A stretch of 52,241 nt of DNA from an uncultured Clostridia bacterium. Lineage in GTDB: Bacteria; Bacillota; Clostridia; Oscillospirales; Acutalibacteraceae. How positions within the stretch are numbered: position 1 is the stretch's first letter; each line of letters opens with the position of its first letter. Below the pieces are notes generated by a model. It worked only from the letters and a program-made list of their open reading frames with translations, searched no databases and was not told where the DNA came from. Location: contig CANQDR010000012.1 in the NCBI GenBank assembly GCA_947593615.1, positions 1 through 52,241 of the forward strand. Direction: 5' to 3'. A program made the position numbers and the translations under genes. Below, in pieces: positions 6,851-52,241 of this stretch.

Positions 6851-6930
6851 TGATTTTAATATATAATAGATTTTCATCGATAGATTATTCAATAGAATAT
6901 ATAAATCTTCTCTATTATATATTAAAATCA
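6851..6930. promoter_or_regulatory. AT-rich palindrome A (20-bp perfect arms)
   Basis: TGATTTTAATATATAATAGA (6851-6870) is the exact reverse complement of 6911-6930. Partial pairing continues outward (GAGTCTCTC near 6837, GAGGGACTC near 6936). The loop carries TCATCGA (6874-6880). Related elements lie at 22486-22573 and 34132-34207. It sits between the capsid terminator and the connector gene, so it is probably the control site of the 7-22 kb late unit. TATAAT is present in the arm, in both orientations. Confidence 0.75.
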
Positions 6931-6981
6931 TTTAAGAGGGACTCTGATGATATTTATAAATAAAAATTTGGAGGAATAAGA

Positions 6982-12541: not shown

Positions 12542-15500
12542 ATGGCAGAAAACAAGCTTTCAAGTACACCCGGAATATTACGGGCTACTGATAGGTATTC
12601 TAATCCGTATGAGGAATATTACGCTAACAACATAAATAACCCGAGATTCTTAAGCGGGGCATTTAATGAATACTACAGGAGTGGAAAAGCTCCTACCATT
12701 ATGGCAATACAAGATGATATTTATAAACTAAGTCCTGAAATTTATAATCAGTATGAAAAACAGTTTCTTCGTTTCTTTGACAATGATGAACAGAAACTTG
12801 GTTTTCTTGCAAACGAATTGTATAACGACGATACTGAAGTAAAAACATTTGAAGACCCGTACGTAGATGAGTACGGACAAGAAAAGGTTGAGACGTTTAC
12901 TGGTACAGAGAAGGCTCATAACCGTAAAATGTTTGAAAATCTCGTAACAGCAAAGAAGTCTCAACTTGAACTTGAAGCAAAAGAGGCAGCTAAGGAAGCA
13001 TGGAGAACAAATAATACAGCATTAGCGTTTCTTGCAGATGCTGGAGTAGTTGCTTCTACAGCGTTAAGTATTCCGTTTGAAGCTTGGAATATGGTTTGGG
13101 ATTTGGTAGGAATTCCGGCCAGACTGATAGGAGCTACAATAGATTCTCAGTCTGGAAAAGATTGGGGAGAAGCTTATAAATACTGGGCTTCAGAATACTA
13201 TTCCGCAAGTCCAGCACGTAAAGCAAGACAAGATATAAACGAGTACTTTTCTGACTATAGTGACCTTGTGGATATATACGGAAACTACAAATCCCTTGTA
13301 GCTAAGATTGATGGTATATTTGGTTCATTTGGTAGAATGCTTCCGAGTATTGCTTTAACGTACGCCGGAGTTCCTGGTCCTGTTACTCAGGGACTTTTCT
13401 ATGCTTCTGCAGCAAGCCAAAGAATAGGTGAAATGGCTTCTCAGCCTCAGTTTAAGGATACAGATTTCTGGAAAATATCCACTAATGCATATGCTACAAG
13501 TGCCGCAGAATGGGCTATAGAATTTGCTCTCGGAAAACTTGTTGGCACTTCCGCATTTGATAGAGCTGCTCTTGGATATCATGACGCTGCTATAAGAGAG
13601 AATGCACAAATTACTTGGAAGAACGCTTTATCAAGAATGCTAAAAGATGCTCTTCATGAGGGACTTGAGGAATGGACTCAGGACTATAGTACGTACTTTA
13701 TAACGGGCCTCTACGGTTATCTCGATGAAGCATTTAATATAGATAATAGGTACGGACTTCAAGAGCAGTTTGACGCATTTATTCTTGGTTTCTTTGGCTC
13801 ATTGTTCTCCACAGGAATGATGATGGCCGGTAGAAGAATTGCCGGCGGATACAAAGGAGGCGTACAGGGCTTCCTTGCCGATTGGGAGTTCTCTCAAGTT
13901 TATGAGGACTTGATGAACCAAGCTAATGATATTCTTGAAGGCAAAAATAAAGCTAACACAAAAGGTCAAAGTTATTCTCTTAAAGCACGAAAGTTGAATA
14001 ATATAATGTTCACTACTCAGGTCTTGAACGATTATATTGCTTCTATCGGAGCTGAGAGGTCTAAGAATGCTATCGACTTACTTGACAGTATTAAATCATA
14101 CATGAATGACAAAGGTAACTTATCTTGGACTGAACTTAATGAAAGAACTGACTCTCTTGTTGACGATGTCTTCCAAACCGTTCTTGATATTGGGCAAATT
14201 AGAGAACAGAGAATGGAAGAAATTAAGCAAGGGCATCCTACATTTAAGGACAAGCTTGGTGAAGTTTTCCATAGACGTAACGTTACTAAGGTTGACAGAA
14301 CGGAATCTCTTAAAACTATACAATCCTCGGACAATGAAGAGGACGTTAAGTTAAGAGAAATTATGGAAAACACAGGAGCACAGACTGTAAGCATTGTAGA
14401 TGGTAATGGCTCCGATATCGCTGAAAATCATCTTGTAGTAAATAAGCAGCAGCTTAAAAATAGAGACGCAAAAATAATTACTAAAGAAATTGCTCAACGA
14501 GAAGCCATTGATAGAATTACTTCTTCAAAAAGATTTATTGCTATTCAAGGACCTCTTGAGGAAATTTATAAACAACTGTTCCCTAAAGATGAGCATCCTA
14601 ATTCTGAAAGAATCGCCATGGCGGTCTTGTACAATTCCAATATGCAAGCAGCTATGCTGGCTGAGAGAACTCAAGAAATGTACGAACTTATTTCAACGGT
14701 TGATAAGCTAATATCTTCTGATGAATTTGTAAAAAATAAGCACGGACAAAACGCAGTGTATGATGCCGAAATGAAAAAGACTCTTTCCGATGCGTCTAAC
14801 GAGCTGCGTAGAGTAGTTAAGTCATTCTTGTGTGATATTCAGTATGCTGATTACGAGAACCTCGAATGCTTAACTTCTGAAGATAAAGATTACATCACGT
14901 CTAAACGTTATGCAAAAACAGTTGCTAACAATTTGATACTTAATGGTAAAGCTACAGATGCTGAATATAATAGTATTGAGAAGAGAGTAAATTCTACTCC
15001 GTTGTCTGATAAAGAAAAGCAACGAATTATATCTGGGCTTCACTCTGATGATTATAACGTTAGACTTAATTCTCTACAAAAAATAGATAGGTTCTATGCT
15101 GGAGTATTCTTTACTAACTATGACGGTAAACGTTTACTTATGCCCGTTAACGCCGGAAACCAAGTTATAAATAACTATCTTGTTAATAATGGAATTCGTG
15201 CAGACCAGCTTGCAAGGTTCATGAGTTCTACTGATACTACTGAACTGTATAGTACTCCTTACGGCCAAAGACTTAGAGAGTTTATAACAAGGACTGGCTC
15301 AACTCCGAGAGAAGCTATTACTGCTGACGTTAGAGCTTTCAGCGGAAATTCGGTAGTTCCTCTTTCTAATAACGGGGTTCTTTCTTCTTACATTTTGAAC
15401 TTGAATAGTGACTATACTAAACTTAAAGACGACGTACTTCTTACAATAAAAGATTCACGTTATACTGAAATGGTTTCATCTGACCAAAAGAAAATCATAG

Positions 15501-18500
15501 GAGAACTTGTTTCAGATAACTCTGAAGGATACGATATAAATGAAGTTGTTTTTGACCCGAGTGTAAAACTTAGTGATGAACTTCTTCAAGAGCTGTACAA
15601 GAGGTATCCTAAAACAAATCAATACGACCCTGCTAATCAGTGGGAAAACAGGCTGTATGTAATAAGAGATTACTTAACGAGAACAAGTACAAAAACAGTT
15701 TCATATACAAGCAAGGGAACTCTCGTTATTGTGGACCTTATAGACAGTTATAATATGCTAACAGATAAGAATATCTCTGCTTCTACTATTAAGTCTGGTG
15801 ATACTCTTGACAAGTACGTAAAGTCTGAATACCTTGGAAGATTTGCCAAGTCCGTTAAAATACGTCTTAAAAATACCGGCGACTCTTACTTTGATTCAAA
15901 GTCAAATGAAATAGTAATTCCAAGATACAGCGGAAAAGATACTTCTGGAAATTACGTTCCTCTTGATGACAAAGTCGTTAGAGCAAATCTTGTACACGAA
16001 ATTCAGCACGTGATACAGCTTCAGAACGGATTGAATCAAGGGCTTGATTCTCGTTGGCTTATATCTGGTAATAAGATAAAAGCAAATGCGCGTTTCATGA
16101 TAAAACTTCATGACGACCTTGAAAGAATAAATCCTTCAATAGCCAATTCATTCCAATACTACAGTCCACAATTTGCTAAGTTCATGAACGACTTAATTTA
16201 CTATGCAAGTGGTGAGTTAAGTGCGTACGGATTTGCCGGTGAAATACAGCATTTTATTCCTTACGTTATACGTCGTACTCGGAATGGAGTATCTATAACT
16301 TCACCTACAGGAACTGTATTTAATATAGACAACAACGGAAGAATGAGTTCCAAAGAGTTAAAAGATTTTGATGAAGATAAAGACCACCCTTTTCCTTTAG
16401 ATGAATATACCTCAGAAAAACTTCCGAAGGCAGGAGTAGATTATCCTTTAGTACTAAGAAGAGTTTCCGTTCATACGAAAAGTGGAAAAGATTTAACGGG
16501 GCACGTTATCACTATTAACGGAGAAAACTATTTTGCTAATGAAAACGACTATACAGACATATATTCTCTTGATAGAATTGAAACTCTTAAAGTTCTAAAG
16601 CCTAATGTCGCATCTTACGGTTATCAGCGTCATCTTATTGAAAACGCTGGATATAAAACTAAGAACGTTCCTCTTCCTGAAATGTTGCATTTGGATAAAA
16701 ATGTATCTAAATTTGCATACAGTAGAGAGAATTTGGAGTCCTCTGGATACGAATCAATTTTACAGTTGTATGATGAAATACGTAATTCTAAAGAATACGA
16801 GGACTTCTTCAACCTTATAAAAGTTCATAATACTTATGAATACTATAAAGTAGATGCCGCGGCTGAGGAACACAGGATGGAGTATTATGCTAAAGTGGGA
16901 ATTCCTAAAATTGACGTGTTAGCAATGGAGAAAAATCCTTTTGTCCAGGCCTGGGTTAGAACTGCTTACGGCGGAAGTGGTTCAAAATATACTAACGAGT
17001 ATAAACAGTTTTTAGCTAAGAATGCAGTAGGAACTTCGAAAAAGTTTTTCCAAGCGTATTTAGCAATGATGATGGGAGTAAAGGCTGAAGATTTTGACAA
17101 ATTAAAGAATGTAAAAATACCTGTTTTAAGAAGCTCAAATAATACCTACAATGACCTTTCTCAACCGTTAAATAGTTTTTTGCCTATTTCTAAGAAAGGA
17201 CTTGTAGAAAGAATGGCAGCTTCTGTAGCAAAAGGAAGGCCTAATGTAGGAAGTTCTACGGTTTATATTACTTATTGTACTCTTGATGAAATAATTGCTT
17301 CATTTGATTTTGATGAAAAACACAGCATAAGTGAAGTTCTACTTCCGTCCTCACTCATGACTGATAGGACTGTAGACCAGTATGACGGATTACTTACTGG
17401 TGACGTAGAAGTAAATGAGGAAGATACTCCTTACGTTTTATTTCTTAAAAAAGTTGGAAATGCAGTAAATATAAATGAAGTCACTGCGTATAACACGGAC
17501 TTGTCTATAAAGTATGTTAACAAGATTAATTCTCTTGCTTATACTAATGAGTACGAATATTTAGTAGATATCTTGCTTAATAATGACGTATCTTTTACTC
17601 CAAAAGATATGAGTATATTTGACTCCTTACTTATTGACATGTACGGACAAGCAAGAAAGGCAAATAGATATAGTTCTGCATACTTTGACAATGGCATTCT
17701 CATATATAGGCAAGGCGCTAATTTAATAGTTAATGCCACTAATAGAATAACAAACGCCCAAGCTGAAGTAATCCAAAATCTTGCAGAAAAACTGGCTATT
17801 GCTACTGATTATAATCCTTACATGTTTTCTGGAAACGTAATAATAAACTTCTTAGGTCGTCAAACTTTTTCTCACAAGTGCATGGACATTGAAACTGGTG
17901 AAATTTTTAGGCTTGAAGAAGAGCTTGAAAGCTACAAGAACACAGGACTAATGTCATCTAAGCCAATTCCTCCTCAGAAAAGTGTTAAAACTATAACTCA
18001 AGAAGAGGAAGAAGAAGCTAAGAAACAAAAGGCCAAAGAGAAATACCGGTCTGCCGCTAAAGAACGTTATATAAGTAACGAAGATGCGAGAGGAACTAAT
18101 CTGTCATTCTATATACAGAAAGGCCGTCCTATAATGCTATCTCCTAAACTTGCTAATTTCATAAAAGACGTAGACCCGGCTCAGTTAGAACCTGAAATAT
18201 GGGATATGATTGGAGGAAGTAATAAAGGTACTTTAAGAACAGAGAAACAACTTACTCAATACTTAAAAGCCCATTTGAGTCCAGACACGGAGCAAAGAAT
18301 TAACAGTTACACTCTTCAAATGATTGCTAAACATATTTACGGTACTAAGATTAACAGTTACGAAGATGTAGATTTATTCGTATCTACTGCTCAGGACTTC
18401 TATGTTTTGAGTTCTAATCTTTGGGACAAAGAAAACGAAGTTTCAAAGATACCAGACACGGAAGTCAGTATACAAGTCGCTTCTAAATTTGCTTTAGAAA

Positions 18501-21500
18501 CTAACACGTCTCCAGATTATGCAAAGCGTCTTTCCAGAGTAACAGCACATTGGGACCATGTAAAAGATTCTGACGGAAAATGGAGAGAAATAAATATTTC
18601 TAATAACGACCTTGCTCTTGCATTTGTAATGCATTTTGATGGAACAATTCAAAGCGCAGTTAAAGCTGCAGATATTGCAAGAAAACTTGCAATTCACAAT
18701 CATCAGAGAGACGTTAAACTTGTTCAAGAAGGTACTACGCATATAACCAAAAAAGGTACTACATATGAAACTGGCTTTGAAAACGTAGAAGATACAGACG
18801 TTTCAGCTCAAATTGATGCTATTGAAAGTGGTACGTCCAGAGAAGATTGGGAAGATTATATACGAAATACTTTGTATGATGAGTATATTCCTAAGTGGGA
18901 AGCTCAAGGAAAGTCTGAAGCTTTTATTGACAGAAAATGTCAAGAACTTGAATTCAAACTTGAGAAACTTTCTGATAAAGCTTTATTTAATCAGTACGTA
19001 AAACTTCTTAGAAAGAAACTCGAAGCTTCTAAAACTTCTGACGTAACAGAAAAGGAAATAGAAGAAGCAGAAAAAGCGCCAATGATATACGGACAAAGAA
19101 CTAATACGAGAACGAAGATAAAATCTAACGCTTCAAGAATTGCAAAAATGATTCCTGCTGAAGGAGTCAAGTGGTTTTTACAGGTTAACGGAGATATTTT
19201 TAACGAGGACATGAAGCTTAAAGAAGAAGCTTACGTCAATAAGTCTCAGGAAGAGCTTGATAAATTGTATGACAGACTAATGGATATAAAGAAAAAAGCA
19301 AGAGCTAATGCTTATGCATCTAAAACTCGTTCGCAGGAATGGGATAAAGTTGTTAAAAAAGCTGCCAGACTTGAGCAGCAAAAGGAAAAACAAAAGTCTC
19401 AAGTAACTAAGTACAAGACTTTATACAAAGATGCCTTATCTAAGACTAAGACTCGCGTATATGATATGAAAGGTATAGCCGTATCTATCGACAGCGAAAC
19501 TCCTATGCCGGCGTCTTTTAAGAAAATAATGGAAACTAATCTTACTACTAAATATAAAACTGATATTTATAATTTAAGTGCAGCTGATGAACAGCATACA
19601 AGGCAGTCCCTCAGGGAATTCCTTGTATCTAATAGTGAAACTCTTGACTCTTTAACAGTGGAAGAGATAGATGATATACTTAACTTCCTTGAATATTATA
19701 CAATGAACCCTCTTGAAAATGACGAGGAACTGGTTAGACGTTTCTCAGCGTTCTCAATTTATACATTGTCCTATATATCAGGCCAACTTGGTACTACACT
19801 TAACGCTTCAAAAGAACAGAGAATTCATGCGGAAAATGTTCTTAAGCGTTTAATTGGTCCGGAGGCTGGTACTAAACTTGCAGCTTACGGCTCAGTAGTT
19901 AAATACTTAAAGAGCCAAGAAGCTCAAGAAGAAGTATTTAAGGCCAATTCTAAGAAGTTAGGACTAACAGTATCTGAACCTCTTGTAGTTGACCTTGTCA
20001 AAGCTGTTCGAGAAAACAATATGCCGGCTATGGAAAAAGCAATGAAGGCTATACGAATTCAGCTTGAAGGAGAATATACTTCTCGAAACAGAAATATCTT
20101 TGACAAGTTACTTAAACTTCAAAGAGCCGCGATGCTTAGCAGTCCCGGTACAATGGTTAGAAACCAGGTAAGTAACGCTCTTGTAACTGCAGGTAATGAA
20201 GTTTCTGATGTAATTGGTAAGATATTTACTTCTGGACTCAAACGGTTTAGTAAATTCCAGAACGGAAGTATTGTGGATGGATTACTTAAGAATCAGTACA
20301 TTTTAACAGGAACAAAAGTTAGTGACGAAATTCGTCAATTCATTGAAATAAACTTTAAGAAGAACGGATTATTAGCATTAGTTCAAGATGGAATGAACAA
20401 GTATGACGTTCGAGGAATTAGTAGACAATCTACTGATGAAACCGTTGCGGACCTAATAATTGAAAGCATAAAAAATAAAATATTTTCTGAACGCTCATTT
20501 GGAGAAAACAAAGGACTTGCCTCAGTTGTAAACAAAGTAATAAGTATTACGATGAAAGGCATGTCCGACTCTCCTTGGGTTAACAGAAAAGCGATATCAT
20601 ATTTTGGCAAAATGCTCGCTGAGAACGAGATTAGAACTGGTCGCAGTTATCACAGTGAAGTTACTCCTGAGATATACGAAATATTTGCTGATGCGTATAT
20701 GATGGCCTCATTTGACTATATGCACAAGACTAACCCAGTTATAAAGTCTCTTGAGCAAGCAATAAGAAACCAAGGAGCTGGTGCATATTTTGTATACAAA
20801 CAGATATTCCCGTTTGCCAATGCAAGTTTGAACTGGGCCGTGGAAGGCTTAAAGTACTCTCCTATTGGCCTGGCCAGAGCAGTTTACAATCTATTCAAAC
20901 TTGAAGGAATAGAACAAAACATAGATTTCCGTAAACAAAAAGGAGAAAGCATTCCATCAAGTAAATTTACTGAATTCATTGTTAAACGTGACCTCGGTAA
21001 AGGAATAGTTGGAAGTGTTCTTTGGGTACTTGGAGCAGCATTAGCTGGATTTGGTCTTATGAGAATAGATGATGAGGACGAAGGCCTTAAACTGTACTTT
21101 GGTAATGATGTATATCTTGATATAAATAATATCTTCGGCTCCTCAAGTCTACTCGCAGGCGCAGCTCTTGTAAGTACAAAATACCAGGAAGGCCACACAT
21201 TCTTGGATTCCGTAACTCTTTGTCTTGATGAAATGTTTGATGAATGGTTTTTTACTGACCTATATAATTCGTTTAGGTTCAATCAAGGCATAGGAGAATG
21301 GCTTATAAGTCAGCCTTCTGAAGCTCTTGGAAGATTTGTTCCTAACTTTATCAAGGGCCTTTCAGCTATGGCGTATCCGTACAAAGTTCAGTATTCAAGT
21401 AATACGTTATTAAAACCTCTTGAACGAATACTTATAGATGCCGCCCCTGGTATAGCTTATAACTTCCCAGCCAAGGTTGACCCGTACACCGGAGAACTTC

Positions 21501-22000
21501 AATCTAAGTATAGTTTGCCGTTCTTGTTCGACTTCCTTGGAAAGTTTGTAGGATTCAAGATTCAGCCTTATAAGGTGAGCAGTCAGGAACAAGAAGCAAT
21601 AGCTGTTGGAGTAACAAGAGGAGTTTTAACTGGCAACTACAAAGACCTTCAAGAACTTGGAGTTACATTATCTTCTTCTGATATAGAAAACTTGAATAAA
21701 CTGTATGGAAAACTGAATAAACGGGCAATATCCGAATTGTTATCAAATAGTAAAAAGTACAGTGTAAAAACTAAAGACGGAACATTTAAGGAAATGAATT
21801 ACAGACAGATGACTAATGAACAAAAGAAAAGCGTTATCAATCGCATAATGGATGATAACGCTAATAAAGCTAAGATTTATATAGCAACTCGCAAAGGTCT
21901 TAAGTATTATACAACCTCTGAGGAAAGGTCTGAACTAATTAAGCTTGGAATACGAAACGTATATGTCAAACTTAAAAACAAAGACGGCTTCTCAAATTAG
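12542..22000 (+). CDS. Giant internal virion (polyvalent) protein with HExxH metallopeptidase motif
   Basis: The protein has 3152 residues, about 18% of the genome. Hydrophobic segments occur near residues 160-200 and 260-300. A helical region with ALHEGLEEWTQ lies near 375. VHEIQHVIQ at 1151-1159 is a zinc HExxH, with a possible third ligand in SGELSAYGF about 60 residues on. Long charged coiled coils lie at about 2140-2310. LQRAAMLSSPGTMVRNQVSN near 2523-2542 resembles the LPD38-type domain of large polyvalent proteins. A transmembrane-like GSVLWVLGAALAGFGL lies near 2823. Such proteins are packed in the capsid and ejected with DNA. ATG 12542 follows GAGAGG. The stop overlaps that of the convergent gene. 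Confidence 0.8.
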   Translation: MAENKLSSTPGILRATDRYSNPYEEYYANNINNPRFLSGAFNEYYRSGKAPTIMAIQDDIYKLSPEIYNQYEKQFLRFFDNDEQKLGFLANELYNDDTEVKTFEDPYVDEYGQEKVETFTGTEKAHNRKMFENLVTAKKSQLELEAKEAAKEAWRTNNTALAFLADAGVVASTALSIPFEAWNMVWDLVGIPARLIGATIDSQSGKDWGEAYKYWASEYYSASPARKARQDINEYFSDYSDLVDIYGNYKSLVAKIDGIFGSFGRMLPSIALTYAGVPGPVTQGLFYASAASQRIGEMASQPQFKDTDFWKISTNAYATSAAEWAIEFALGKLVGTSAFDRAALGYHDAAIRENAQITWKNALSRMLKDALHEGLEEWTQDYSTYFITGLYGYLDEAFNIDNRYGLQEQFDAFILGFFGSLFSTGMMMAGRRIAGGYKGGVQGFLADWEFSQVYEDLMNQANDILEGKNKANTKGQSYSLKARKLNNIMFTTQVLNDYIASIGAERSKNAIDLLDSIKSYMNDKGNLSWTELNERTDSLVDDVFQTVLDIGQIREQRMEEIKQGHPTFKDKLGEVFHRRNVTKVDRTESLKTIQSSDNEEDVKLREIMENTGAQTVSIVDGNGSDIAENHLVVNKQQLKNRDAKIITKEIAQREAIDRITSSKRFIAIQGPLEEIYKQLFPKDEHPNSERIAMAVLYNSNMQAAMLAERTQEMYELISTVDKLISSDEFVKNKHGQNAVYDAEMKKTLSDASNELRRVVKSFLCDIQYADYENLECLTSEDKDYITSKRYAKTVANNLILNGKATDAEYNSIEKRVNSTPLSDKEKQRIISGLHSDDYNVRLNSLQKIDRFYAGVFFTNYDGKRLLMPVNAGNQVINNYLVNNGIRADQLARFMSSTDTTELYSTPYGQRLREFITRTGSTPREAITADVRAFSGNSVVPLSNNGVLSSYILNLNSDYTKLKDDVLLTIKDSRYTEMVSSDQKKIIGELVSDNSEGYDINEVVFDPSVKLSDELLQELYKRYPKTNQYDPANQWENRLYVIRDYLTRTSTKTVSYTSKGTLVIVDLIDSYNMLTDKNISASTIKSGDTLDKYVKSEYLGRFAKSVKIRLKNTGDSYFDSKSNEIVIPRYSGKDTSGNYVPLDDKVVRANLVHEIQHVIQLQNGLNQGLDSRWLISGNKIKANARFMIKLHDDLERINPSIANSFQYYSPQFAKFMNDLIYYASGELSAYGFAGEIQHFIPYVIRRTRNGVSITSPTGTVFNIDNNGRMSSKELKDFDEDKDHPFPLDEYTSEKLPKAGVDYPLVLRRVSVHTKSGKDLTGHVITINGENYFANENDYTDIYSLDRIETLKVLKPNVASYGYQRHLIENAGYKTKNVPLPEMLHLDKNVSKFAYSRENLESSGYESILQLYDEIRNSKEYEDFFNLIKVHNTYEYYKVDAAAEEHRMEYYAKVGIPKIDVLAMEKNPFVQAWVRTAYGGSGSKYTNEYKQFLAKNAVGTSKKFFQAYLAMMMGVKAEDFDKLKNVKIPVLRSSNNTYNDLSQPLNSFLPISKKGLVERMAASVAKGRPNVGSSTVYITYCTLDEIIASFDFDEKHSISEVLLPSSLMTDRTVDQYDGLLTGDVEVNEEDTPYVLFLKKVGNAVNINEVTAYNTDLSIKYVNKINSLAYTNEYEYLVDILLNNDVSFTPKDMSIFDSLLIDMYGQARKANRYSSAYFDNGILIYRQGANLIVNATNRITNAQAEVIQNLAEKLAIATDYNPYMFSGNVIINFLGRQTFSHKCMDIETGEIFRLEEELESYKNTGLMSSKPIPPQKSVKTITQEEEEEAKKQKAKEKYRSAAKERYISNEDARGTNLSFYIQKGRPIMLSPKLANFIKDVDPAQLEPEIWDMIGGSNKGTLRTEKQLTQYLKAHLSPDTEQRINSYTLQMIAKHIYGTKINSYEDVDLFVSTAQDFYVLSSNLWDKENEVSKIPDTEVSIQVASKFALETNTSPDYAKRLSRVTAHWDHVKDSDGKWREINISNNDLALAFVMHFDGTIQSAVKAADIARKLAIHNHQRDVKLVQEGTTHITKKGTTYETGFENVEDTDVSAQIDAIESGTSREDWEDYIRNTLYDEYIPKWEAQGKSEAFIDRKCQELEFKLEKLSDKALFNQYVKLLRKKLEASKTSDVTEKEIEEAEKAPMIYGQRTNTRTKIKSNASRIAKMIPAEGVKWFLQVNGDIFNEDMKLKEEAYVNKSQEELDKLYDRLMDIKKKARANAYASKTRSQEWDKVVKKAARLEQQKEKQKSQVTKYKTLYKDALSKTKTRVYDMKGIAVSIDSETPMPASFKKIMETNLTTKYKTDIYNLSAADEQHTRQSLREFLVSNSETLDSLTVEEIDDILNFLEYYTMNPLENDEELVRRFSAFSIYTLSYISGQLGTTLNASKEQRIHAENVLKRLIGPEAGTKLAAYGSVVKYLKSQEAQEEVFKANSKKLGLTVSEPLVVDLVKAVRENNMPAMEKAMKAIRIQLEGEYTSRNRNIFDKLLKLQRAAMLSSPGTMVRNQVSNALVTAGNEVSDVIGKIFTSGLKRFSKFQNGSIVDGLLKNQYILTGTKVSDEIRQFIEINFKKNGLLALVQDGMNKYDVRGISRQSTDETVADLIIESIKNKIFSERSFGENKGLASVVNKVISITMKGMSDSPWVNRKAISYFGKMLAENEIRTGRSYHSEVTPEIYEIFADAYMMASFDYMHKTNPVIKSLEQAIRNQGAGAYFVYKQIFPFANASLNWAVEGLKYSPIGLARAVYNLFKLEGIEQNIDFRKQKGESIPSSKFTEFIVKRDLGKGIVGSVLWVLGAALAGFGLMRIDDEDEGLKLYFGNDVYLDINNIFGSSSLLAGAALVSTKYQEGHTFLDSVTLCLDEMFDEWFFTDLYNSFRFNQGIGEWLISQPSEALGRFVPNFIKGLSAMAYPYKVQYSSNTLLKPLERILIDAAPGIAYNFPAKVDPYTGELQSKYSLPFLFDFLGKFVGFKIQPYKVSSQEQEAIAVGVTRGVLTGNYKDLQELGVTLSSSDIENLNKLYGKLNKRAISELLSNSKKYSVKTKDGTFKEMNYRQMTNEQKKSVINRIMDDNANKAKIYIATRKGLKYYTTSEERSELIKLGIRNVYVKLKNKDGFSN

Positions 22001-29083: not shown

Positions 29084-29923
29084 TTACTCCTCAATGTTTT
29101 GATTTTCTTCGTCCTCAGTATCTGGTGTAAGTACAGTTTCAGCCTCGAGCTTGCCGGACTCAACAAACTTTTGGAACTTCTCGTAAGTAAAATCTTCAAC
29201 GAACTCTCCTACCTTCAAAGGAATATCTCTTGTGCCTGTATCCATCAAAGGATGCGGACCAATGAACGTTAAAAATTTTACAGTCTTTTCACCGAGGTCA
29301 TTGTAACACGTCTTTCTGCAGCAGTAGAAGATATTACTTGCATCCTTCATAAACTTGACTCCGGTGTTTATTGTCAAGTCAGGAACAATTCGTATCTCTT
29401 TGTTTAAGCCAGACGTTTCATACACCTCTTGCTCTCTGGTGTGAGTTATCCACACAAAGGTAACACCTTTCTCTTCTGAGAATCGTTTCATGTTATCCTT
29501 TATGTTCATCATCATCTTGGAAATATCACCCCATTCTGAAGTAGAAAGTGCACGACCTCCCTTAGTAAACTCAATGTAACTCTTGTAGTCATCTTGTAAA
29601 GCTCCTACAGTATCTATTACAATTGTCTTAAACTCATCGGCCCCGGGTTTTCTCAGTTCCGATAAAAGTTCTGCAAGTTTTTCAATAGAAGTCTTTTGTA
29701 TTTTACCTCCGACTATCTTGTCATTCGCAAGGTTCTTAACTCTGATATTACCTTTGACTACGTCGTTATGATACATCATGTTAAGAACTCTGCCGCCGCC
29801 GTCGCTGCCGACTGACACATAAAGCAAAGGCTTTGGATATGAACCTGCAATAAGTGTCTTGCCAGACTTCGGTTTACCCATGAACAGGTGAATGTCATGA
29901 GTAATAAAGCTATCGTATTCCAT
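29084..29923 (-). CDS. Sak4-like RecA-fold ATPase
   Basis: 279 residues. Walker A GKPKSGKT near residue 16, Walker B FKTIVIDTVG near 98, and THTREQE near 165 in the sensor region. The compact RecA core without LexA/RecA accessory domains fits the Sak4-type recombinase/ATPase of phages. The C-terminal 30 residues are acidic. It starts on a TAATG overlap with the dNMP kinase gene, behind GGAGGT, and is followed by its usual DUF669-type partner. Confidence 0.87.
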   Translation of the reverse strand: MEYDSFITHDIHLFMGKPKSGKTLIAGSYPKPLLYVSVGSDGGGRVLNMMYHNDVVKGNIRVKNLANDKIVGGKIQKTSIEKLAELLSELRKPGADEFKTIVIDTVGALQDDYKSYIEFTKGGRALSTSEWGDISKMMMNIKDNMKRFSEEKGVTFVWITHTREQEVYETSGLNKEIRIVPDLTINTGVKFMKDASNIFYCCRKTCYNDLGEKTVKFLTFIGPHPLMDTGTRDIPLKVGEFVEDFTYEKFQKFVESGKLEAETVLTPDTEDEENQNIEE

Positions 29924-30405
29924 TATTTACCTCCTATAAAATTCAATACATCTTGCACCGTTTGTTTTTCAAAATCGTAATAATATACTGGAACTACTTC
30001 GTATAGTTCTAATACTCTTACGACATAATTGTACAGTTTTTGTATTTCCATAGCCTCATATTCGTATTTTATATTTTCTTCTCCTCTGGCTATAGAGTAT
30101 TCATATGCATTTGGAGTACAACAATATATAATTTTTGTAAGGCGTTTGTTCAATATTGTACAAACCTGGTTCCAATTAAAATCACACTTATCTAATGATT
30201 TACCATCATACAAACGATAAACTATTTGCGTTAATATCATTCTATCAACTACAACTACTGCGTCCGACATCATAATCGTATATACTTCACGTATTGTCCA
30301 ATTGTACCCTCTTTCTCTTCGTAATGCAATACATCCATTTTCTTTTAACTTCTTACATAGTGTTGTTTTTCCAGAGCCGTCCGGCCCTTCAATTATTACT
30401 AACAT
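29923..30405 (-). CDS. Deoxynucleoside monophosphate kinase, thymidylate-kinase fold
   Basis: 160 residues. P-loop EGPDGSGKTT at residues 6-15, a VVVDRMILTQIVY segment (the DR-type motif of thymidylate kinases) near 50, and a C-terminal alpha/beta half. In phages with modified bases such kinases phosphorylate the unusual dNMP (T4 gp1 is the model). Its start lies inside the last codons of the hydroxymethylase-like gene, so the two enzymes are translated together. This suggests the hydroxymethylase product as substrate. A plain dTMP kinase is the alternative. Confidence 0.85.
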   Translation of the reverse strand: MLVIIEGPDGSGKTTLCKKLKENGCIALRRERGYNWTIREVYTIMMSDAVVVVDRMILTQIVYRLYDGKSLDKCDFNWNQVCTILNKRLTKIIYCCTPNAYEYSIARGEENIKYEYEAMEIQKLYNYVVRVLELYEVVPVYYYDFEKQTVQDVLNFIGGK

Positions 30406-31055
30406 AATTTGTCTTTATCCCTCAAATACATATGAAAACTTCCAGCATTATGATAGTATGTGCCAATTTCCAGTCCTAACTCCATAGCCATTTGTATTTG
30501 CATACAAGTAAAATTAAACACATCATATGGCAAACCAAGATAAATATCATTGCTTCTCATTGTTGTAATTAAATCAAGTTTATTATCTCTACAAATAAAT
30601 TGAAGAGCAATAGTACAATTAACATCTAAAGTTGGATACGATATTAAATCCCTTGCTTCTTTAATATGTATAATTGCCTGTCTTGAATAGCTGTCTTTTC
30701 TAAGTAATTCTTTCACCATTTCCCATTGGTCAAATGTGTATTTATCATGTATACACCAACCATAATTACTATTGACACATCCATTTTCATCAGCAATATT
30801 TTCCCAAAATTTAGAAAACGGACTTATAGATTTAGCCGTAACGTTTCTACTATTATACCAACATAATTCTCCTATAGCATATCTCATTGGCATTTTTCTT
30901 TTGCAATTACACATAGTATTTCTTGTGGGGTCATTAAGTACAAGATTAGCATTTATCATTTCAAATGCCACTGTTTCGTGTTTTACTGGGTGCTCTTTTA
31001 ATGCTGCTAAAGCATTATCAAATAAAACATCAGCTGTCTCACCACAAACAATCAT
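30399..31055 (-). CDS. Thymidylate synthase family, predicted dCMP hydroxymethylase
   Basis: 218 residues from ATG 31055 (behind TGGAGGT; the upstream TTG is rejected). The catalytic residues match E. coli thymidylate synthase at identical spacing: C147, R167, S168, D170, H208, Y210. At the next key place, LGLPYD, D178 replaces the Asn that selects dUMP (N177 in E. coli, 31 residues after the Cys). T4 dCMP hydroxymethylase has Asp at this site. The His that follows the catalytic Cys in synthases is Thr here. The predicted reaction is dCMP plus methylene-tetrahydrofolate to 5-hydroxymethyl-dCMP. Methylation is possible but less likely. Confidence 0.83.
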   Translation of the reverse strand: MIVCGETADVLFDNALAALKEHPVKHETVAFEMINANLVLNDPTRNTMCNCKRKMPMRYAIGELCWYNSRNVTAKSISPFSKFWENIADENGCVNSNYGWCIHDKYTFDQWEMVKELLRKDSYSRQAIIHIKEARDLISYPTLDVNCTIALQFICRDNKLDLITTMRSNDIYLGLPYDVFNFTCMQIQMAMELGLEIGTYYHNAGSFHMYLRDKDKLC

Positions 31056-31056
31056 A

Positions 31057-31872
31057 TCAACCTCCAACAATATTTTTTATTGTATTATAAAATCCTTTTG
31101 TATCCACATTTTCTCTATAAGATATAAGAAGAGCGTCATACAAATCATCGGAATGTTCCATTCTTTGTATAAAAGATTTAACTGTTTTAGTATTAACTTT
31201 TATACAGTTAAGCCAATCATATTTATCGTATTCTTCATCTACAACTGGCAAACTATGACACGCCAACGTTTCAAAATACCTTGCAGTTATCCAACCTATT
31301 CGTTCATACATCTTACGAGCAACTATCAAATTATATTTTCTTTTAGCTACTTCTCGTTTATATTCATTATATGGCAATCTATTGTCAAAATCATTTGATT
31401 TAATAAGGTTATCTGACGGAACCATAGACAAATATTTATATATCTTTGCTTCGTTATCTCTTACTCCACCACCAAACAATAATTTATTATTGTTTCCTGG
31501 TATAAACAAATCTTCTTTGTAAAACAATTCAGGAACATATGAATATCTTTGGTCTATATTTTGTGGTAAATCAAGGTTGCTCATCGGGCATTGATGAAGC
31601 ACATGAGTGCTCATTTCAATAATATCTTTATTTTCATCAAATGCTATAGGGTCTGACAATATAAATATAATGTTTTTGAATTTTTTAAGAAAACGTTTCA
31701 ACTCTTCAGTATCACCATCTTTTTTTCCATTTATTACAACTATACTATCTGGAGCTTCTATTTCTGCTAATTCATTTAGTATCAATTTATATTCATATAC
31801 TCCGCTATTCTTATCAATTAAATCTCCATTACTATCTAAGTATTTACTCAAACCTATTTTATATGCTATCAC
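31057..31872 (-). CDS. GT-B-like glycosyltransferase, possible DNA-base glycosyltransferase
   Basis: 271 residues. The N-terminal half is Rossmann-like (SIVVINGKKD near 44, NIIFILSDP near 67). The C-terminal half has LLFGGGVRDNEAK near 131 and KMYERIGWITARYFETLACH (188-206), which matches the donor-binding E-containing segment of GT-B enzymes, followed by SLPVVDEEYD. I choose GTG 31872, which overlaps the radical SAM stop (GTGA) and follows GGAGG. Being between the radical SAM gene and the hydroxymethylase gene suggests that it decorates a modified base. The sugar donor is unknown. Confidence 0.72.
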   Translation of the reverse strand: MIAYKIGLSKYLDSNGDLIDKNSGVYEYKLILNELAEIEAPDSIVVINGKKDGDTEELKRFLKKFKNIIFILSDPIAFDENKDIIEMSTHVLHQCPMSNLDLPQNIDQRYSYVPELFYKEDLFIPGNNNKLLFGGGVRDNEAKIYKYLSMVPSDNLIKSNDFDNRLPYNEYKREVAKRKYNLIVARKMYERIGWITARYFETLACHSLPVVDEEYDKYDWLNCIKVNTKTVKSFIQRMEHSDDLYDALLISYRENVDTKGFYNTIKNIVGG

Positions 31873-32654
31873 ACAAATTCCTCCATTTTGCATTCAGATT
31901 TTTGCCATTTACCTTTTGGAATATTCCATTCTTTAACTTTACAATATGAACACATTCTTGCTTCTTCTTTCAAAAATTGTTCTATATCGGACAATGAATG
32001 GTCTCGTATGATAATATAGTCGTCTATCGGCAAATTTAGTCCGTATAACTTATTCAGATATTCCGCCCTTGCAATTTGACTACATGGATACAACTTGCCA
32101 TCTCGTAGTTCATGACACGTATAATAAGGTTTTTCTTTCCAAAGAGTACAAAGATTGTGCATCTCTTCTCCGTTTTGCTCACCAGTCTGGTCAATAGAAT
32201 ACTTATAAAATGTAACGTAATCATTGTTTTGACAAAACTTGTATACAATGTGGTATTCATTTAACAGTTTTTCCATTCTTTTGTAATCAATTTTGCTACT
32301 GTATTTACTTATAAGTATCTCTATGTCTAATCGTCTTAACATTGCAAGATACTGTTTGGGCATGGACAGTAACAATATACCATTAGTTGTAACTCTTATT
32401 CTTGACCATGGTAGTTGGTCCCTTGCAATTTTGCAAAGGTCTATAAACTTAGGGTGTATCAGCGGCTCTCCTCCGAGAATGCCTAACGTTCCTAATTCTC
32501 TGCCGTGTTCTGTAAGTATTGACAACGCCAAAATGTCATCAGCAAATTGTTCTATAGTCACTTCGTATTCATTTACAACAGGCGCGTAATGACAACAATA
32601 CTTGCAATTAAGATTACACCTATCAACTATTGAATATTCTATTCGGTCTATCAT
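31869..32654 (-). CDS. Radical SAM enzyme with Cys-rich C-terminus
   Basis: 261 residues from ATG 32654, which overlaps the MetK stop (ATGA). C13, C17 and C20 form the CxxxCxxC that binds the radical SAM 4Fe-4S cluster. LGGEPLIHP (GGEP 61-64) and TTNG (89-92) bind SAM. C169, C180, C191, C235 and C238 suggest a SPASM/Twitch-like auxiliary cluster. It is not QueE-like, since the Cys motif is canonical. It lies between SAM synthetase and the glycosyltransferase, so I infer a role in building a hypermodified base or the group put on it. Confidence 0.85.
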   Translation of the reverse strand: MIDRIEYSIVDRCNLNCKYCCHYAPVVNEYEVTIEQFADDILALSILTEHGRELGTLGILGGEPLIHPKFIDLCKIARDQLPWSRIRVTTNGILLLSMPKQYLAMLRRLDIEILISKYSSKIDYKRMEKLLNEYHIVYKFCQNNDYVTFYKYSIDQTGEQNGEEMHNLCTLWKEKPYYTCHELRDGKLYPCSQIARAEYLNKLYGLNLPIDDYIIIRDHSLSDIEQFLKEEARMCSYCKVKEWNIPKGKWQKSECKMEEFV

Positions 32655-33466
32655 ACGAACCCCCACTCAGCAAATTTTTCAAATCCTCCAATTTTCTTTA
32701 TGTACGAATCCGCATCACTCATAAGCATCTGATAAGAGTTATGGTCTACATACAAATCACCTATGGCGCAAGAACATTTATGTATACTGCCAGCTTTGGC
32801 CATTAAATGGCAATGGATATTTAATGTAACATCTGCTTTTGTAAAATCTTTGCCATGCAATCCACCTCCAGTAGCTGCTCTTCCCATGTCAGAACCGAGC
32901 TTACGATTAGTTGCTCCAGTATCTACATCAAGTCCTCCAGTCCAATTTCCCAACGGATTTATTATTAACTTTTTATCACGTACAAGTCTACGATGTTTGT
33001 TTATTATAAATTCTCGTATCTCCTGTTCTTCAGCATTGCTTTGACAAATTACTAGTTTGTCTTTATCTATAAGGTATTTGCCGTCATAAGGATACTTTTC
33101 GTACAATTCCCTTGCAATTTCAGATAACTTAAGTTCTTCGTAATTAGAAACGCATCCTTTGAATATCCCGTTGTCTCCACAATGGAAATTAAATTTTTGA
33201 TTTTCTGCAAGTTTTTCATCTTGAGGTATCCAACGAAAATTAACCTTCATTACACCTGCTATACGATTTACTATGCTTTGGATTTCAAAAATGGTAATGT
33301 TAACATTTGTTTCACAAATTACTGTAGCTTCTCCATGACCTATGAGTACTTCTACAGCTATCACAGGATTTGACGGATTAGATTTATTATATGCCAAATC
33401 AACTATGGCCCCGGCGATTCTATCAGCAATTTTGTCCGGATGCGAAGGATTTACTTTTTCAAACAC
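32651..33466 (-). CDS. metK: S-adenosylmethionine synthetase, compact form
   Basis: 271 residues, against about 380-400 for bacterial MetK. Family motifs are present: NPSHPDKIADRIAGAIVD (residues 6-23), IGHGEATVICET, NPLGNWTGGLDVDTGATNRK (170-189) and GGGLHGKDFTKAD (200-212), which holds the P-loop-like and metal/phosphate site. The last domain, and part of the middle one, are missing relative to cellular enzymes. GTG 33466 follows AAGGAG. The enzyme makes SAM from Met and ATP, and its direct coupling to the radical SAM gene says what the SAM is for. The operon shows no DNA methylase. Confidence 0.88.
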   Translation of the reverse strand: MFEKVNPSHPDKIADRIAGAIVDLAYNKSNPSNPVIAVEVLIGHGEATVICETNVNITIFEIQSIVNRIAGVMKVNFRWIPQDEKLAENQKFNFHCGDNGIFKGCVSNYEELKLSEIARELYEKYPYDGKYLIDKDKLVICQSNAEEQEIREFIINKHRRLVRDKKLIINPLGNWTGGLDVDTGATNRKLGSDMGRAATGGGLHGKDFTKADVTLNIHCHLMAKAGSIHKCSCAIGDLYVDHNSYQMLMSDADSYIKKIGGFEKFAEWGFV

Positions 33467-33794
33467 GGCTTCTCCTTGTCAATCTTGCTATGTTTTTACT
33501 TTGCTTTAGTCGTATAGCATTCATTAGCTCTTCGCAAGATATGCCATAGAAAATACAAGCATTTATTATGTAAATCACGGCGTCCGCTGTTTCTTCAATA
33601 ACATTACTTTTATTTACCTTCGGAACTTTATTACTTCCAAAATTTCTCTTCCATCTTGTATCTTCTGCTAAGGCCTCTCCTATTTCAAGTATCGCTCCTG
33701 TTAAACTATTATACCATTGAGTAATATTTTCTCCACCTACTCCAAGGCCTAGTTTTTCTTGCAATTGTTTTTGCTTATTAAAAATTTCTGTCAT
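33459..33794 (-). CDS. All-alpha NTP pyrophosphatase, dUTPase/dCTPase-like
   Basis: 111 residues, helical. ILEIGEALAED (E37xxE40) and, later, EETADAVIYI (ExxD) form the magnesium site of the MazG/dimeric dUTPase superfamily. TRWKRNFG follows the first motif, as in dimeric dUTPases and T4 dCTPase. It overlaps the MetK gene by 8 bp. In a phage that replaces cytosine, an enzyme of this family removes dCTP and supplies dCMP (T4 gp56). Plain dUTPase or house-cleaning MazG activity is the alternative. ATG 33794 follows AGGGGG. Confidence 0.75.
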   Translation of the reverse strand: MTEIFNKQKQLQEKLGLGVGGENITQWYNSLTGAILEIGEALAEDTRWKRNFGSNKVPKVNKSNVIEETADAVIYIINACIFYGISCEELMNAIRLKQSKNIARLTRRSRV

Positions 33795-34042
33795 CAATTA
33801 ACCCCCTTAAGTTCCTCATATTGAGGGTCTGTCAAGTACTTGTGAACGAGCTCTTGGAACTCGTCTCTCGGGATTATTCCGTCCCTATCAAGCACTTTAA
33901 TAAGAGCTGCCATTACAAATGCCAACTCTTCTGCGCTTGTTCCATTTGGAGCCGTAAAAGAATATAATCCCCCATCCCCATCGAAAGAGACGCTGAGAAC
34001 CAATCTCCTTGGCTCATTAGTAGCTTCAGTTTCGTTTTCCAT
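33794..34042 (-). CDS. Hypothetical acidic protein (82 aa), first gene of modification operon
   Basis: 82 residues with an N-terminal Glu/Asn-rich head, a beta-hairpin (RLVLSVSFDGDGGLYSFTAP) and two helices. ATG 34042 is chosen because TGGAGG lies six bases upstream; the ATG 12 bases earlier overlaps that site. It shares one base with the next start (TGATG). I recognise no family. It may be a small regulator or subunit for the operon that it opens. Confidence 0.72.
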   Translation of the reverse strand: MENETEATNEPRRLVLSVSFDGDGGLYSFTAPNGTSAEELAFVMAALIKVLDRDGIIPRDEFQELVHKYLTDPQYEELKGVN

Positions 34043-34071
34043 AAATACCTCCATGTTTTATTTTTTTTTTC

Positions 34072-48994: not shown

Positions 48995-51900
48995 ATGATT
49001 AAAAACATAAAAGACGTTGAGCTTACGGAACTTGATGACGAGACATCAAGAGTTCCTGTAGCATCTTCTACTGGTCCAGGCATTGCTTCATTTGATGCTG
49101 AGGACTTCAATATTTCTGAGGACGGAGAAATAAGCCTTCGAAATGGTTCTCGGAAGTATAATCTTTTCTACGCTAAAGTAATTTCTTTAACTACAGAGGA
49201 ACAGTTTACTGGAAAAAAGGAAGTAGACATTGGTTACGTGGACTATCTTAAGTTTAATCGAGAGCCTCTTAAGTTTGACTTCTTCTTGTCTATGTTTTCA
49301 TATAATGGAGAAAGTTATCTTGGAGTATTTCAAGTCAGTCAAATTACAGAGCAAGTTCATGAGACGAGTAAGAACGTAAAAGCCATTCTTATGGATAAGT
49401 CTATTGTTCTTAAAGGCGACAAAGGTGACAAAGGTGACAAAGGTGACGAAGGCAAAAAGGGTGAAACTGGCCCGGCTGGCCCTCAAGGTCCTCAAGGTAT
49501 TCAAGGTCCAGAAGGCAAGCAAGGGCCTGCCGGTTTGTCTGTAAATATTCTTGACGGAACTTTCTACGCTGTAGGACAAGAACCTTCTTCGACTCTCGGT
49601 TTAACTCCATTGCCGGATTTTTCCAGCACAAGTGAGAATGACGGCTACGTAGTTCTTGATAAGACTAACCGATATGACTTGTACATGCACAATATTGGTG
49701 GTAAAACATGGAACGTTGTCAATGATTGGGGTGGCGTTCCTGGCCCGCAAGGTCCTCGTGGTGAGCAAGGTCCTGTTGGACAGACGGGGCCTCAAGGCTC
49801 AGTTGGCCCTAAAGGTGAGCAAGGCGTAGGCATTGAGGACGTAGAAGTTTCTCCAAAAGGTAGCAGCGACCAAGGAATGCTTTATGAAGTTACTGTTCAT
49901 TTTGATGACGGAAATGAAGTATTAGCAGGAGATATTCTTGCTCCCACTGGACCTCGAGGTCCTCAAGGTGCTCAAGGACTTCAAGGCGTTGCAGGTCCTA
50001 CAGGTCCTACGGGGGCTCGCGGACCTCAAGGAGAACCTGGCGTTGAGGGTCCTCAAGGCGTAGCTGGTCCTCAAGGCGAACAAGGACCGGAAGGTCCTAA
50101 AGGTCCTAAGGGAGATACTGGCATACAGGGACCTATTGGTCCTCAGGGCGAGAGAGGCCCTACTGGTTTGCAAGGTCCTCAAGGCCTTCAAGGCGTTCCT
50201 GGTCCCGCTGGTCCCGCGGGGGATACTGGACCTGAGGGTCCCATGGGTAAAACTGGCCCGGCTGGTCCAATTGGTCCCGCTGGTCCGGAAGGTGCAAGAG
50301 GACCTGCTGGCATTCAAGGTCCTGCTGGTGAGCAAGGTCCTACCGGTCCCCAGGGTCTGGTAGGTCCAAGAGGTCCTGCTGGTCCCGCCGGAGAGGCTGG
50401 TCCTCAAGGTGAGAGAGGCCCTGAGGGGCCTGAAGGCCCAGAGGGTCCTGCCGGTCCAGCCGGTCCTGCCGGTCCTGAGGGTTTGCAAGGACCTGCTGGC
50501 CCTCAAGGTAAGCAAGGTCTTCAAGGTCCAGCTGGACCCCAAGGCCCCGCAGGTGACCCTGGTCCTCAGGGATTGCAAGGTCCTCAAGGCGTGGCCGGCC
50601 CTGCTGGTCCTCAGGGAATTCAAGGTCCTCGCGGTGAACGTGGTCCTGAAGGACCTGAAGGTCCTCGTGGCCCAGCTGGAGCTGACGGAAAGAGCTTCCA
50701 GATTCTTGGTCAGGTAGATACTAAAGAGGAGCTTCCTGAAGTATCTTCCGCTAACCTCGGTGACGCGTACTTTGTAGGATTATCAACCCCTCGTAACGTC
50801 TATGCTTGCGTTCTTGTTAACGGAGAAGCTAAATGGGAAAACCAGGGAACTCTCCAAGGTCCTCAGGGCGAGCGTGGTCCTCAAGGTATTCAAGGCAATG
50901 CAGGCGAAACCGGTGCTCAAGGTCCTGTCGGTCCTGCTCCTAACCTTACAGTTAAGGTTACAGTTGACTCTTTGTCAAGTGATATGCCTACCGCTGAAGT
51001 AACCAAAGAAGGTGACGATGCTTCTCCTACACTCACTATTGCGATAAGTGGTATTAAAGGCACCAAGGGTGATAAAGGCGAGCAAGGTGATATCGGTCCC
51101 GAAGGACCTGAAGGTCCTGCTGGTCCGACTGGAGCTCAAGGTCCTAAGGGCGAACAAGGTGACCCTGGGGAGCAAGGACCCGAAGGTCCTCAAGGAAAGC
51201 AAGGGCCTCAAGGCATACAGGGACCCACTGGCGAGCCTGGTGAGACTGGGCCTCAAGGTCCAGCGGGTCCTCAAGGCCCAGTTGGTCCGGTTGGTCCTGA
51301 AGGTCCTGAAGGTCCTGAAGGTCCTGCTGGCAAACAAGGTCCTAAGGGTGACACTGGTGACACTGGTCCTATTGGTCCAGCTGGTCCGAAAGGTGACGCC
51401 GGTGAGCAAGGTCCTGAAGGTCCTGCCGGACCGCAGGGTATTCAAGGGCTTCAAGGTGAGCCCGGTCCTGCTGGCGCCCAAGGTCCTATCGGTAAGACTC
51501 CAGTGCTTACTGTAACTGCGACAACCGATGGTACTTCAAGTAGCACGCCCAAGGTCAATGTTACTAAAACAGGCACGGACGAGAAACCTACTTTAGCTTT
51601 TGCGTTTACTGGCTTAAAAGGTCCTGCTGGCCAGTCTGGCGCTAATGGTAAAGATGGTGCAGCAGGTAGACCAGTATATAGTAAAATTGGAGGAACTAAT
51701 CTTACTGACCTTGGTCTAACTGATTATACTGTGACTTTTAGTAACATGACTCCTTCGACTCCTACCCCTATCGTAGGTGATACTGTTGTATTTACAACAT
51801 CTACTTGCACTTATATTGGCCAGATTAAAACAGTTCAAACATCAGCCGCAACAGTTACGGCTAAAGCCAGACTGAACGGCCTTGGTTACGATACAGTCAT

Positions 51901-52241
51901 TGGCTCACAAGAAGAGTTTGAGGCATGGTATGCTAAACTAGATGCTGGGACGTATAAGGGTGAGGGTGTTCTTATTCTCAGTGGTACGTATACTCGTAGT
52001 GACGGAAAAGGGTTACGCTTGCCTGAGACATTAAAACAATTGCATGGACTTGGAACCGTAAAAATAGATATTACTGATTTTGTATACGCTGCAAATACTG
52101 CCAAAGGTGGTATTTGGTATCCTACTGCCCGGACTGCAAAAGAATATTCTATTGAGAATATATCTTTGAATTGTACCAGCTCAGGCAGCACCTGTTATGC
52201 CTTCCACTCCTGTACTAATCTAACTAACTGTACAGGTTCCA
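48995..52241 (+). CDS. Collagen-like tail fibre (N-terminal 1082 codons; continues at base 2-583)
   Basis: ATG 48995 follows TTAGGAGGATAT. With the circular join the protein has 1250 residues. The first 140 are a globular base. Long Gly-X-Y collagen-like tracts follow (about 140-165, 245-275, 310-570, 625-645 and 685-835), broken by globular hinges. One of these hinges is duplicated ([20 protein letters not shown] and [20 protein letters not shown]). After about residue 870 a beta-rich domain leads to the Cys-rich repeats at the start of the window. Pro is frequent at X, and Gln, Glu, Ala and Lys at Y. The likely role is receptor binding. Confidence 0.92.
52165..52241. repeat. 77-bp terminal direct repeat, right copy
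   Basis: Identical to bases 1-77 and in the same reading frame. It is best read as the overlap that closes the circular assembly, not as a biological terminal repeat. Confidence 0.9.

Follow-up and report, generated by a model that had tools for sequence, protein, structure and literature searches.

The DNA analysed here, referred to below as the window, is a stretch of 52,241 nucleotides whose first 77 bases are identical to its last 77. The assembly is hence likely to be circular, with a length of ~52,164 bp, and its probable source is a gut phage. In this window we recovered the six leftward ORFs of a preliminary description, spanning 29923..33797 at the coordinates assigned there and overlapping or abutting their neighbors, such that the claimed run of coupled genes holds. 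Homologue starts and local sequence suggest later starts for several of them. All the features discussed lie on the reverse strand. Upstream, an ORF of 86 aa (33794..34054) with no match to a Pfam or PHROGs family overlaps the first gene of the run and is possibly the first gene of the transcript. On the other flank, after the cassette and beside replication genes, a gene for an AAA_24 ATPase (29084..29923; Pfam AAA_24) overlaps the stop of the last cassette gene with its start as TAATG. Neither promoter-like sites (25 observed against 25.8 in shuffles) nor terminator-like sites (1 against 2.0) are in excess.

The predicted cytosine-modifying enzymes

The ThyA-fold protein coded by the fifth gene (30399..31070, with a probable start at ATG 31055, one base past the stop of the preceding gene and preceded by GGAGG) matches Thymidylat_synt in Pfam with 79.6 bits against a cut-off of 24.3. 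Its top PDB matches are the CMP hydroxymethylase MilA (3.5e-23) and the T4 dCMP hydroxymethylase (4.3e-17), and the best thymidylate synthase (6e-16) falls below the best cytidylate hydroxymethylase chains. The catalytic Cys of this putative enzyme is C152, and its D183 corresponds to D179 of T4 gp42, where the dUMP enzyme of SPO1 has N194. An Asp occupies this selectivity position in all 28 rows of alignment A7, which unites the proteins of the window and of Agathobaculum phage AB434P2 with 26 relatives out of the 120 listed. The earlier reading of a ThyA homologue with the dCMP-type Asp is thus borne out, and the sequence supports the prediction of a dCMP 5-hydroxymethylase.

The fourth gene (31057..31893; probable start GTG 31872, with a GTGA overlap) was rightly called GT-B-like, T4 beta-glucosyltransferase (BGT) being the best match of its product in both fold and sequence. 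A residue comparison with T4 BGT indicates that the equivalents of D100, R269 and E272 are invariant in its family. No Pfam family is matched at E <= 0.01, and the protein hence lies outside T4-Gluco-transf (PF09198), which is matched by the enzymes of phages VPE25 and ATCCB. Hhalign comparisons of its profile with single glycosyltransferases gave probabilities of 35, 86 and 70%, which are too weak alone. Taken together, the fold match and the conserved residues support a putative DNA glucosyltransferase of the BGT kind, in which we found no donor-specific feature.

The dCTPase and dNMP-kinase labels are the weakest of the six assignments and marginal, because their Pfam scores sit just above the cut-offs. 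The first gene (33459..33797; start possibly ATG 33794) codes for an all-alpha NTP pyrophosphatase, a proposed dCTPase-dUTPase, which barely passes the threshold for dUTPase_2 (24.9 bits against 22.9; E 2.9e-5) and matches phrog_173, NTP pyrophosphohydrolase. Across 108 aa it shares 33% identity with the product of the dUTPase_2 gene in the AB434P2 operon (L001 401-772). It aligns poorly with T4 gp56, and its specificity for dCTP is putative. The last gene (29923..30405) codes for a P-loop (deoxy)nucleoside monophosphate kinase, a proposed hm-dCMP kinase, whose match to Thymidylate_kin (28.0 bits against 27.0) is confined to residues 5-22; that to the thymidylate kinase family phrog_761 extends across residues 1-142.

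A radical SAM enzyme coupled to a SAM synthetase

The third gene (31869..32666; probable start ATG 32654, in an ATGA overlap with the stop of the preceding gene) codes for a radical SAM enzyme with 46.2 bits to Radical_SAM against a cut-off of 29.5. It displays the CxxxCxxC motif, C-terminal cysteines predicted as ligands of an auxiliary cluster, and the twitch fold. In fold it is most like SpeY (22% identity) and BtrN (18%), dehydrogenases that act on precursors in the synthesis of aminoglycoside-type antibiotics, and is accordingly predicted to be a sugar dehydrogenase. Twitch relatives perform other chemistry as well, and a fold shared with SpeY at just 22% identity does not fix the reaction. 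Nevertheless, given this resemblance to dehydrogenases, oxidation appears likelier than the carbon-extended product that the preliminary description had envisaged.

Genome scans with this enzyme gave, at E <= 1e-30, two matches in 300 genomes of the same family, apart from the window's own genome; at E <= 1e-45 there was one in 394 genomes of the order, which is one of those two, and none in 391 genomes of the class. The contig scan of GTDB covers only the matches listed, such that close relatives may be missed. We found no close relative in named phage, plasmid or IMG/VR collections, and distant radical SAM enzymes occur in two phage records; the hydroxymethylase had no match in these two, a result that carries no weight as evidence. 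The neighbor set A4 comprises the nearest gene on each side for 34 of 42 loci, along with four second neighbors. Some cellular relatives seem solitary, as in L104, where the gene lies among ribosomal and RNA-polymerase genes, judging from translations.

The second gene (32651..33466) codes for a MetK-like S-adenosylmethionine synthetase of 271 aa that matches S-AdoMet_synt_N (37.1 bits against 33.1) and phrog_1569 (E 4e-55). It falls under the TIGR01034 equivalog cut-off (47.6 against 309.4 bits), and its HPDK, RK and GKD..K.D stretches align with those of solved MetKs. By its sequence it belongs to a compact branch of phage MetKs that retains these motifs. The notion of a private SAM supply is still fair, since Pfam scans found no methylase family among the 57 distinct ORFs of the window; that the gene is peculiar to this pathway did not stand, MetK being a widespread phage gene found in many phages without the cassette.

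The gene set, the proposed pathway and its alternatives

At the limits of the searches, and including the query from the window wherever it appeared in a list, the glycosyltransferase, radical SAM enzyme and hydroxymethylase have 20, 72 and 1121 relatives, from which we judge that their genes are not chance ORFs. Alignment A1 omits P0001 and P0002, which are near-identical to the query, and A2 omits the short P0053. Single-protein scans of IMG/VR returned no relatives of the hydroxymethylase or the radical SAM enzyme, and neither such a scan nor the glycosyltransferase alignment returned any of the glycosyltransferase; at E <= 1e-15, scans of 300 and 398 genomes found only the window's own copy of the latter. 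As a stand-in for synteny, we looked for contigs of identical bp size between the lists of relatives, covering 120 of the 1121 hydroxymethylase clusters by the longest contig of each. The radical SAM and glycosyltransferase families each share contig sizes with the hydroxymethylase relatives; between themselves they share none, and their pairing may therefore be loose. Size matches between radical SAM and hydroxymethylase relatives include P0032/P0095 (53,670 bp), P0030/P0147 (45,704 bp), P0023/P0166 (15,275 bp) and P0007/P0129 (47,009 bp). Of the seven radical SAM pairs, the one at 1,089 bp links contigs from separate data sources and probably arose by chance. Neither this radical SAM gene nor this MetK occurs in the 80 IMG/VR hydroxymethylase loci kept of 127 found, 79 of which are <=38% identical to the window's hydroxymethylase, or in the kin stretches of AB434P2, ATCCB, VPE25, MW202657 and MT837767. 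The full set is hence not fixed.

We posit that the operon replaces cytosine with a sugar-bearing 5-hydroxymethylcytosine whose sugar is oxidized by radical chemistry, a reading of the sequences to which we give a probability of roughly 0.56. It retains the T4-type cytosine pathway with radical SAM and MetK genes inside the operon, as first described, and drops the pathway-specific MetK, the carbon extension and the fixed set. The pyrophosphatase would convert dCTP (and dUTP) to the monophosphate, a step drawn from a weak domain call or logic. The ThyA-fold enzyme would then hydroxymethylate dCMP, as sequence, residues and fold suggest, and the kinase, again by weak domain call or logic, would with the host NDP kinase yield hm-dCTP for the phage polymerase. 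On sequence, residue and fold evidence, the BGT-like enzyme would add a hexose to the hydroxymethyl group in DNA. Going by its fold and genomic company, the twitch enzyme would oxidize a sugar hydroxyl to a ketone, the reaction of SpeY and BtrN on their antibiotic precursors, at one SAM per turnover, either on the DNA or on the sugar nucleotide prior to transfer. This stoichiometric use demands a supply of SAM, which MetK would furnish, by logic or a weak call. More tentatively, most virion cytosines of a phage with an anaerobic gut host might carry a ketone-bearing sugar, oxidized by the MetK-fueled enzyme on finished glucosyl-hydroxymethylcytosine.

It is somewhat unlikely that the radical SAM enzyme acts on a sugar nucleotide such as UDP-glucose, with an oxidized, epimerized or deoxy donor then transferred by the glycosyltransferase. 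Its gene precedes that of the glycosyltransferase, and the extra genes by hydroxymethylase and glycosyltransferase genes elsewhere have a donor-making look: a UDP-galactopyranose mutase in ATCCB, and a HAD/kinase fusion with an HldE/TagD-like nucleotidyltransferase in AB434P2. Against this, sugar nucleotides are not known as substrates of SpeY or BtrN, and the glycosyltransferase shows no donor-specific feature. We consider it quite unlikely that the product is plain T4-type glucosyl-hydroxymethylcytosine and that the radical SAM and MetK genes, serving peptide maturation or host metabolism, are merely co-transcribed. MetK is generic in phages, and the radical SAM enzyme and glycosyltransferase are not seen together elsewhere; however, the dehydrogenase fold, the overlapping genes inside the operon, the size coincidences between radical SAM and hydroxymethylase relatives over 5 kb (6/25) and the lack of any anaerobic RNR family in Pfam scans of the 57 ORFs all speak against it. 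That MetK chiefly guards the phage against low SAM or a SAM-depleting host defense, the radical SAM enzyme only benefiting, would fit its presence in phages without the cassette. This is very unlikely: the commonest family following MetK is a SAM-using DNA methylase (41/77 loci, from the best 80 of 582 IMG/VR loci plus L002, minus four without a called downstream gene; some contigs look like near-copies), and here MetK abuts the radical SAM gene. Hydroxymethylation of dUMP, with the modification on thymine, would accord with the annotation of the closest named phage relative as a deoxyuridylate hydroxymethyltransferase and with the radical SAM enzymes known in thymidine hypermodification, but is scarcely credible given the Asp in all 28 rows, as in T4 gp42 rather than the SPO1 enzyme, and the higher-scoring cytidylate hydroxymethylases.

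Significance and comparison with known systems

Cytosine hypermodification is the classic means by which phages counter restriction and CRISPR. In the literature searched, we found no description of radical SAM sugar oxidase chemistry on DNA. If oxidation of the sugar is indeed its role, the radical SAM protein would be an editing enzyme for DNA-borne sugars and would account for the presence of a SAM synthetase gene in the phage. The ketone could provide a reactive site at which lysines of restriction enzymes are trapped or further groups are attached.

Shewanella phage Thanatos encodes an enzyme that makes a sugar donor, from which cytosine is proposed to receive a sugar other than glucose; the searched text on this pentosyl-cytosine pathway names no radical SAM enzyme, with "radical" occurring 0 times (PMC12838424). 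Lactobacillus phage ATCCB and Enterococcus phage VPE25 combine a hydroxymethylase bearing the Asp, a T4-Gluco-transf glycosyltransferase and a further sugar gene, namely the mutase in the former and, in the latter, one annotated as nucleotide-sugar-synthetase-like without a Pfam match; radical SAM and MetK genes of the families described here were not found in the 12.6 kb stretches searched. SpeY and BtrN serve antibiotic synthesis, whereas their distant relative here lies in a phage operon. Also similar to the window are AB434P2 (OP172633) and the human-gut scaffold MT837767, in which genes for a pyrophosphatase, kinase, glycosyltransferase and hydroxymethylase likewise stand in a row, with hydroxymethylases 54% and 38% identical to that of the window and glycosyltransferases of the same profile family. 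Their gene order differs, for the kinase is second there and last here, and their middle holds an EcbF-like HAD/kinase fusion, joined in AB434P2 by the nucleotidyltransferase, in place of the MetK and radical SAM genes. On the more tentative reading, gut phages would maintain an exchangeable position for sugar-tailoring genes, flanked by those for dCTPase and DNA glycosyltransferase, with the radical SAM enzyme as one of several inserts, and such operons, including that of AB434P2 with its named host, would become predictions of new DNA bases. With the T4 glucosyl-5-hydroxymethylcytosine pathway (gp56, gp42, gp1 and beta-GT), the window shares the dCMP-type hydroxymethylase, the pyrophosphatase and kinase candidates and the key residues of its BGT-like glycosyltransferase; it differs in that this glycosyltransferase is compact and outside Pfam's T4 family, and in that its operon adds MetK and a radical SAM enzyme, with all the candidates in one coupled run.

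Layout of the operon and its hydroxymethylase

The six coupled leftward genes of the preliminary description (29923..33797) were all recovered as ORFs that overlap or abut each other. As judged from the starts of homologues, the probable starts of the genes for the radical SAM enzyme (31869..32666, minus strand), the T4 beta-glucosyltransferase-like GT (31057..31893, minus) and the ThyA-fold hydroxymethylase (30399..31070, minus) lie slightly downstream of the longest-ORF starts. The first operon gene is overlapped by an 86-aa ORF without a Pfam or PHROGs family, and a gene for an AAA_24 ATPase comes after the last.

Among the best 60 of 115 PDB matches, the hydroxymethylase recovered the CMP 5-hydroxymethylase MilA (E 3.5e-23), then the T4 dCMP hydroxymethylase (4.3e-17), both ahead of the best thymidylate synthase (6e-16); one T4 hydroxymethylase variant chain (2.6e-15) ranked below the latter. 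The dCMP-type Asp previously ascribed to this ThyA homologue is corroborated by the alignment of its Asp183 with T4 D179, where the SPO1 dUMP hydroxymethylase has Asn194, and by an Asp in 28 of 28 aligned rows. We take D183 to be the selectivity residue and C152 to be the catalytic Cys. At E <= 1e-40, 1121 relatives were counted in the protein database; the 120 listed entered the comparison of contig sizes below.

The probable phage genome and its possible demand for SAM

The operon-bearing sequence is a single contig of a 2.2 Mb metagenome-assembled genome. Its first and last 77 bases are exactly identical (1-77 = 52165-52241), which points to a circular assembly, and Pfam and PHROGs detect genes for a DNA polymerase, primase, helicase, terminase and portal protein; its most likely identity is a tailed-phage genome, complete at ~52,164 bp, that ended up in a bacterial bin. 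It also codes for a collagen-like repeat protein (48995-52241 and 1-583; Collagen E 2e-76), whose reading frame runs off the contig end and may resume at the contig start, and for a 3152-aa ORF (12542-22000, plus) without a Pfam match at E <= 0.001 in this 52 kb phage. Two ORFs oppose each other over the same stretch (416 aa, 5515-6765, minus; 413 aa, 5521-6762, plus), and one of 41 further ORFs scanned matched the BclA_C domain.

MetK (32651..33466, minus) belongs to a compact branch, phrog_1569, present in 38 named phage records and in at least 582 of 600 IMG/VR candidate stretches. Of the genes called downstream of MetK in 77 loci, 41 match an N6/N4 DNA methylase, and the others include terminase (at least 6), HNH-protein and unnamed genes; in the window, this place is taken by the radical SAM enzyme. 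Pfam scans of 57 distinct ORFs of the window detected no methylase, so that no SAM user other than the radical SAM enzyme is recognised in this phage. Twitch dehydrogenases use one SAM per turnover; hence, with 21,240 G:C pairs per genome, an assumed burst of 50 progeny would consume ~1 million SAM molecules, which exceeds the usual pool several-fold. Such a demand gives MetK a reason, though no proof.

Do the families travel together?

As a stand-in for synteny, we scored exact matches in longest-contig size between protein clusters. With the 120 listed hydroxymethylase clusters as reference, 7 of 37 near radical SAM clusters and 7 of 20 GT clusters had a matching size, against means of 0.25 and 0.13 (maximum 2) when sizes were shifted by 1-200 either way. 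With contigs > 5 kb only, 6 of 25 and 5 of 12 matched (shifted means 0.06 and 0.02, never above 1), all 11 pairs being drawn from the same data source. The 35 distant radical SAM clusters gave no match to the 120 hydroxymethylase clusters, and the radical SAM and GT lists had no longest-contig size in common. Thus, by these matches the radical SAM and GT families are each linked with the hydroxymethylase, while a link between the two themselves is not visible.

In IMG/VR, 80 of 127 hydroxymethylase loci were kept (77 confirmed by profile; closest identity to the window's enzyme 49%, others <=38%): a GT of the window's family lies in 2 of the 80, but a window-type radical SAM enzyme or MetK in none. 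Separately, a 281 kb IMG/VR phage contig (3300028886_000035) has, at 5567-11842, genes for a NodU-like carbamoyltransferase, a GT2-like enzyme and several radical SAM proteins; its record has no hydroxymethylase match, which does not show absence there.

Proposed chemistry and related phage operons

We favor a route in which the radical SAM enzyme would oxidise a hexose already on phage DNA; the main rival is that it acts via a sugar-nucleotide route instead. All of this chemistry is inferred, as are the donor sugar and the roles of the dCTPase and kinase. Among titles and abstracts on radical SAM enzymes with cytosine hypermodification, DNA glycosylation, or a phage glucosyltransferase plus hydroxymethylase, and on hydroxymethylcytosine with UDP-galactopyranose mutase, in a literature set with few subscription papers, we recognised no paper on the window's combination.

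Agathobaculum phage AB434P2, which has a named host, encodes in order (OP172633.1, 401-5582) a dUTPase_2, a thymidylate-kinase-like protein, an EcbF-like HAD/kinase fusion, an HldE/TagD-like nucleotidyltransferase, a GT, a hydroxymethylase and a second possible GT. Its first GT falls in the profile family of the window's GT (BGT family) and its hydroxymethylase is 54% identical to the window's; this is a further, apparently uncharacterised hydroxymethylcytosine decoration operon. Much of this gene set is repeated in the human-gut scaffold MT837767, a record marked unverified, in which the GT (5598-6600) is apparently split over two reading frames; the gene may be broken, or the sequence may contain an error. 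In Lactobacillus phage ATCCB (MK504445.1, 5914-8969), a hydroxymethylase, a T4-type GT and a UDP-galactopyranose mutase stand in a row, suggesting galactofuranosyl hydroxymethylcytosine, and Enterococcus phage VPE25 has genes for a hydroxymethylase, a dUTPase and a T4-type GT as well as one whose annotation is nucleotide-sugar-synthetase-like, itself without a Pfam match. Neither the window-type radical SAM enzyme nor MetK was found in the searched stretches of these four. Although the kinase gene is last in the window's operon but second in AB434P2, their recurring operon frame with exchangeable genes supports the reading of the MetK-radical SAM pair as a sugar-tailoring insert.
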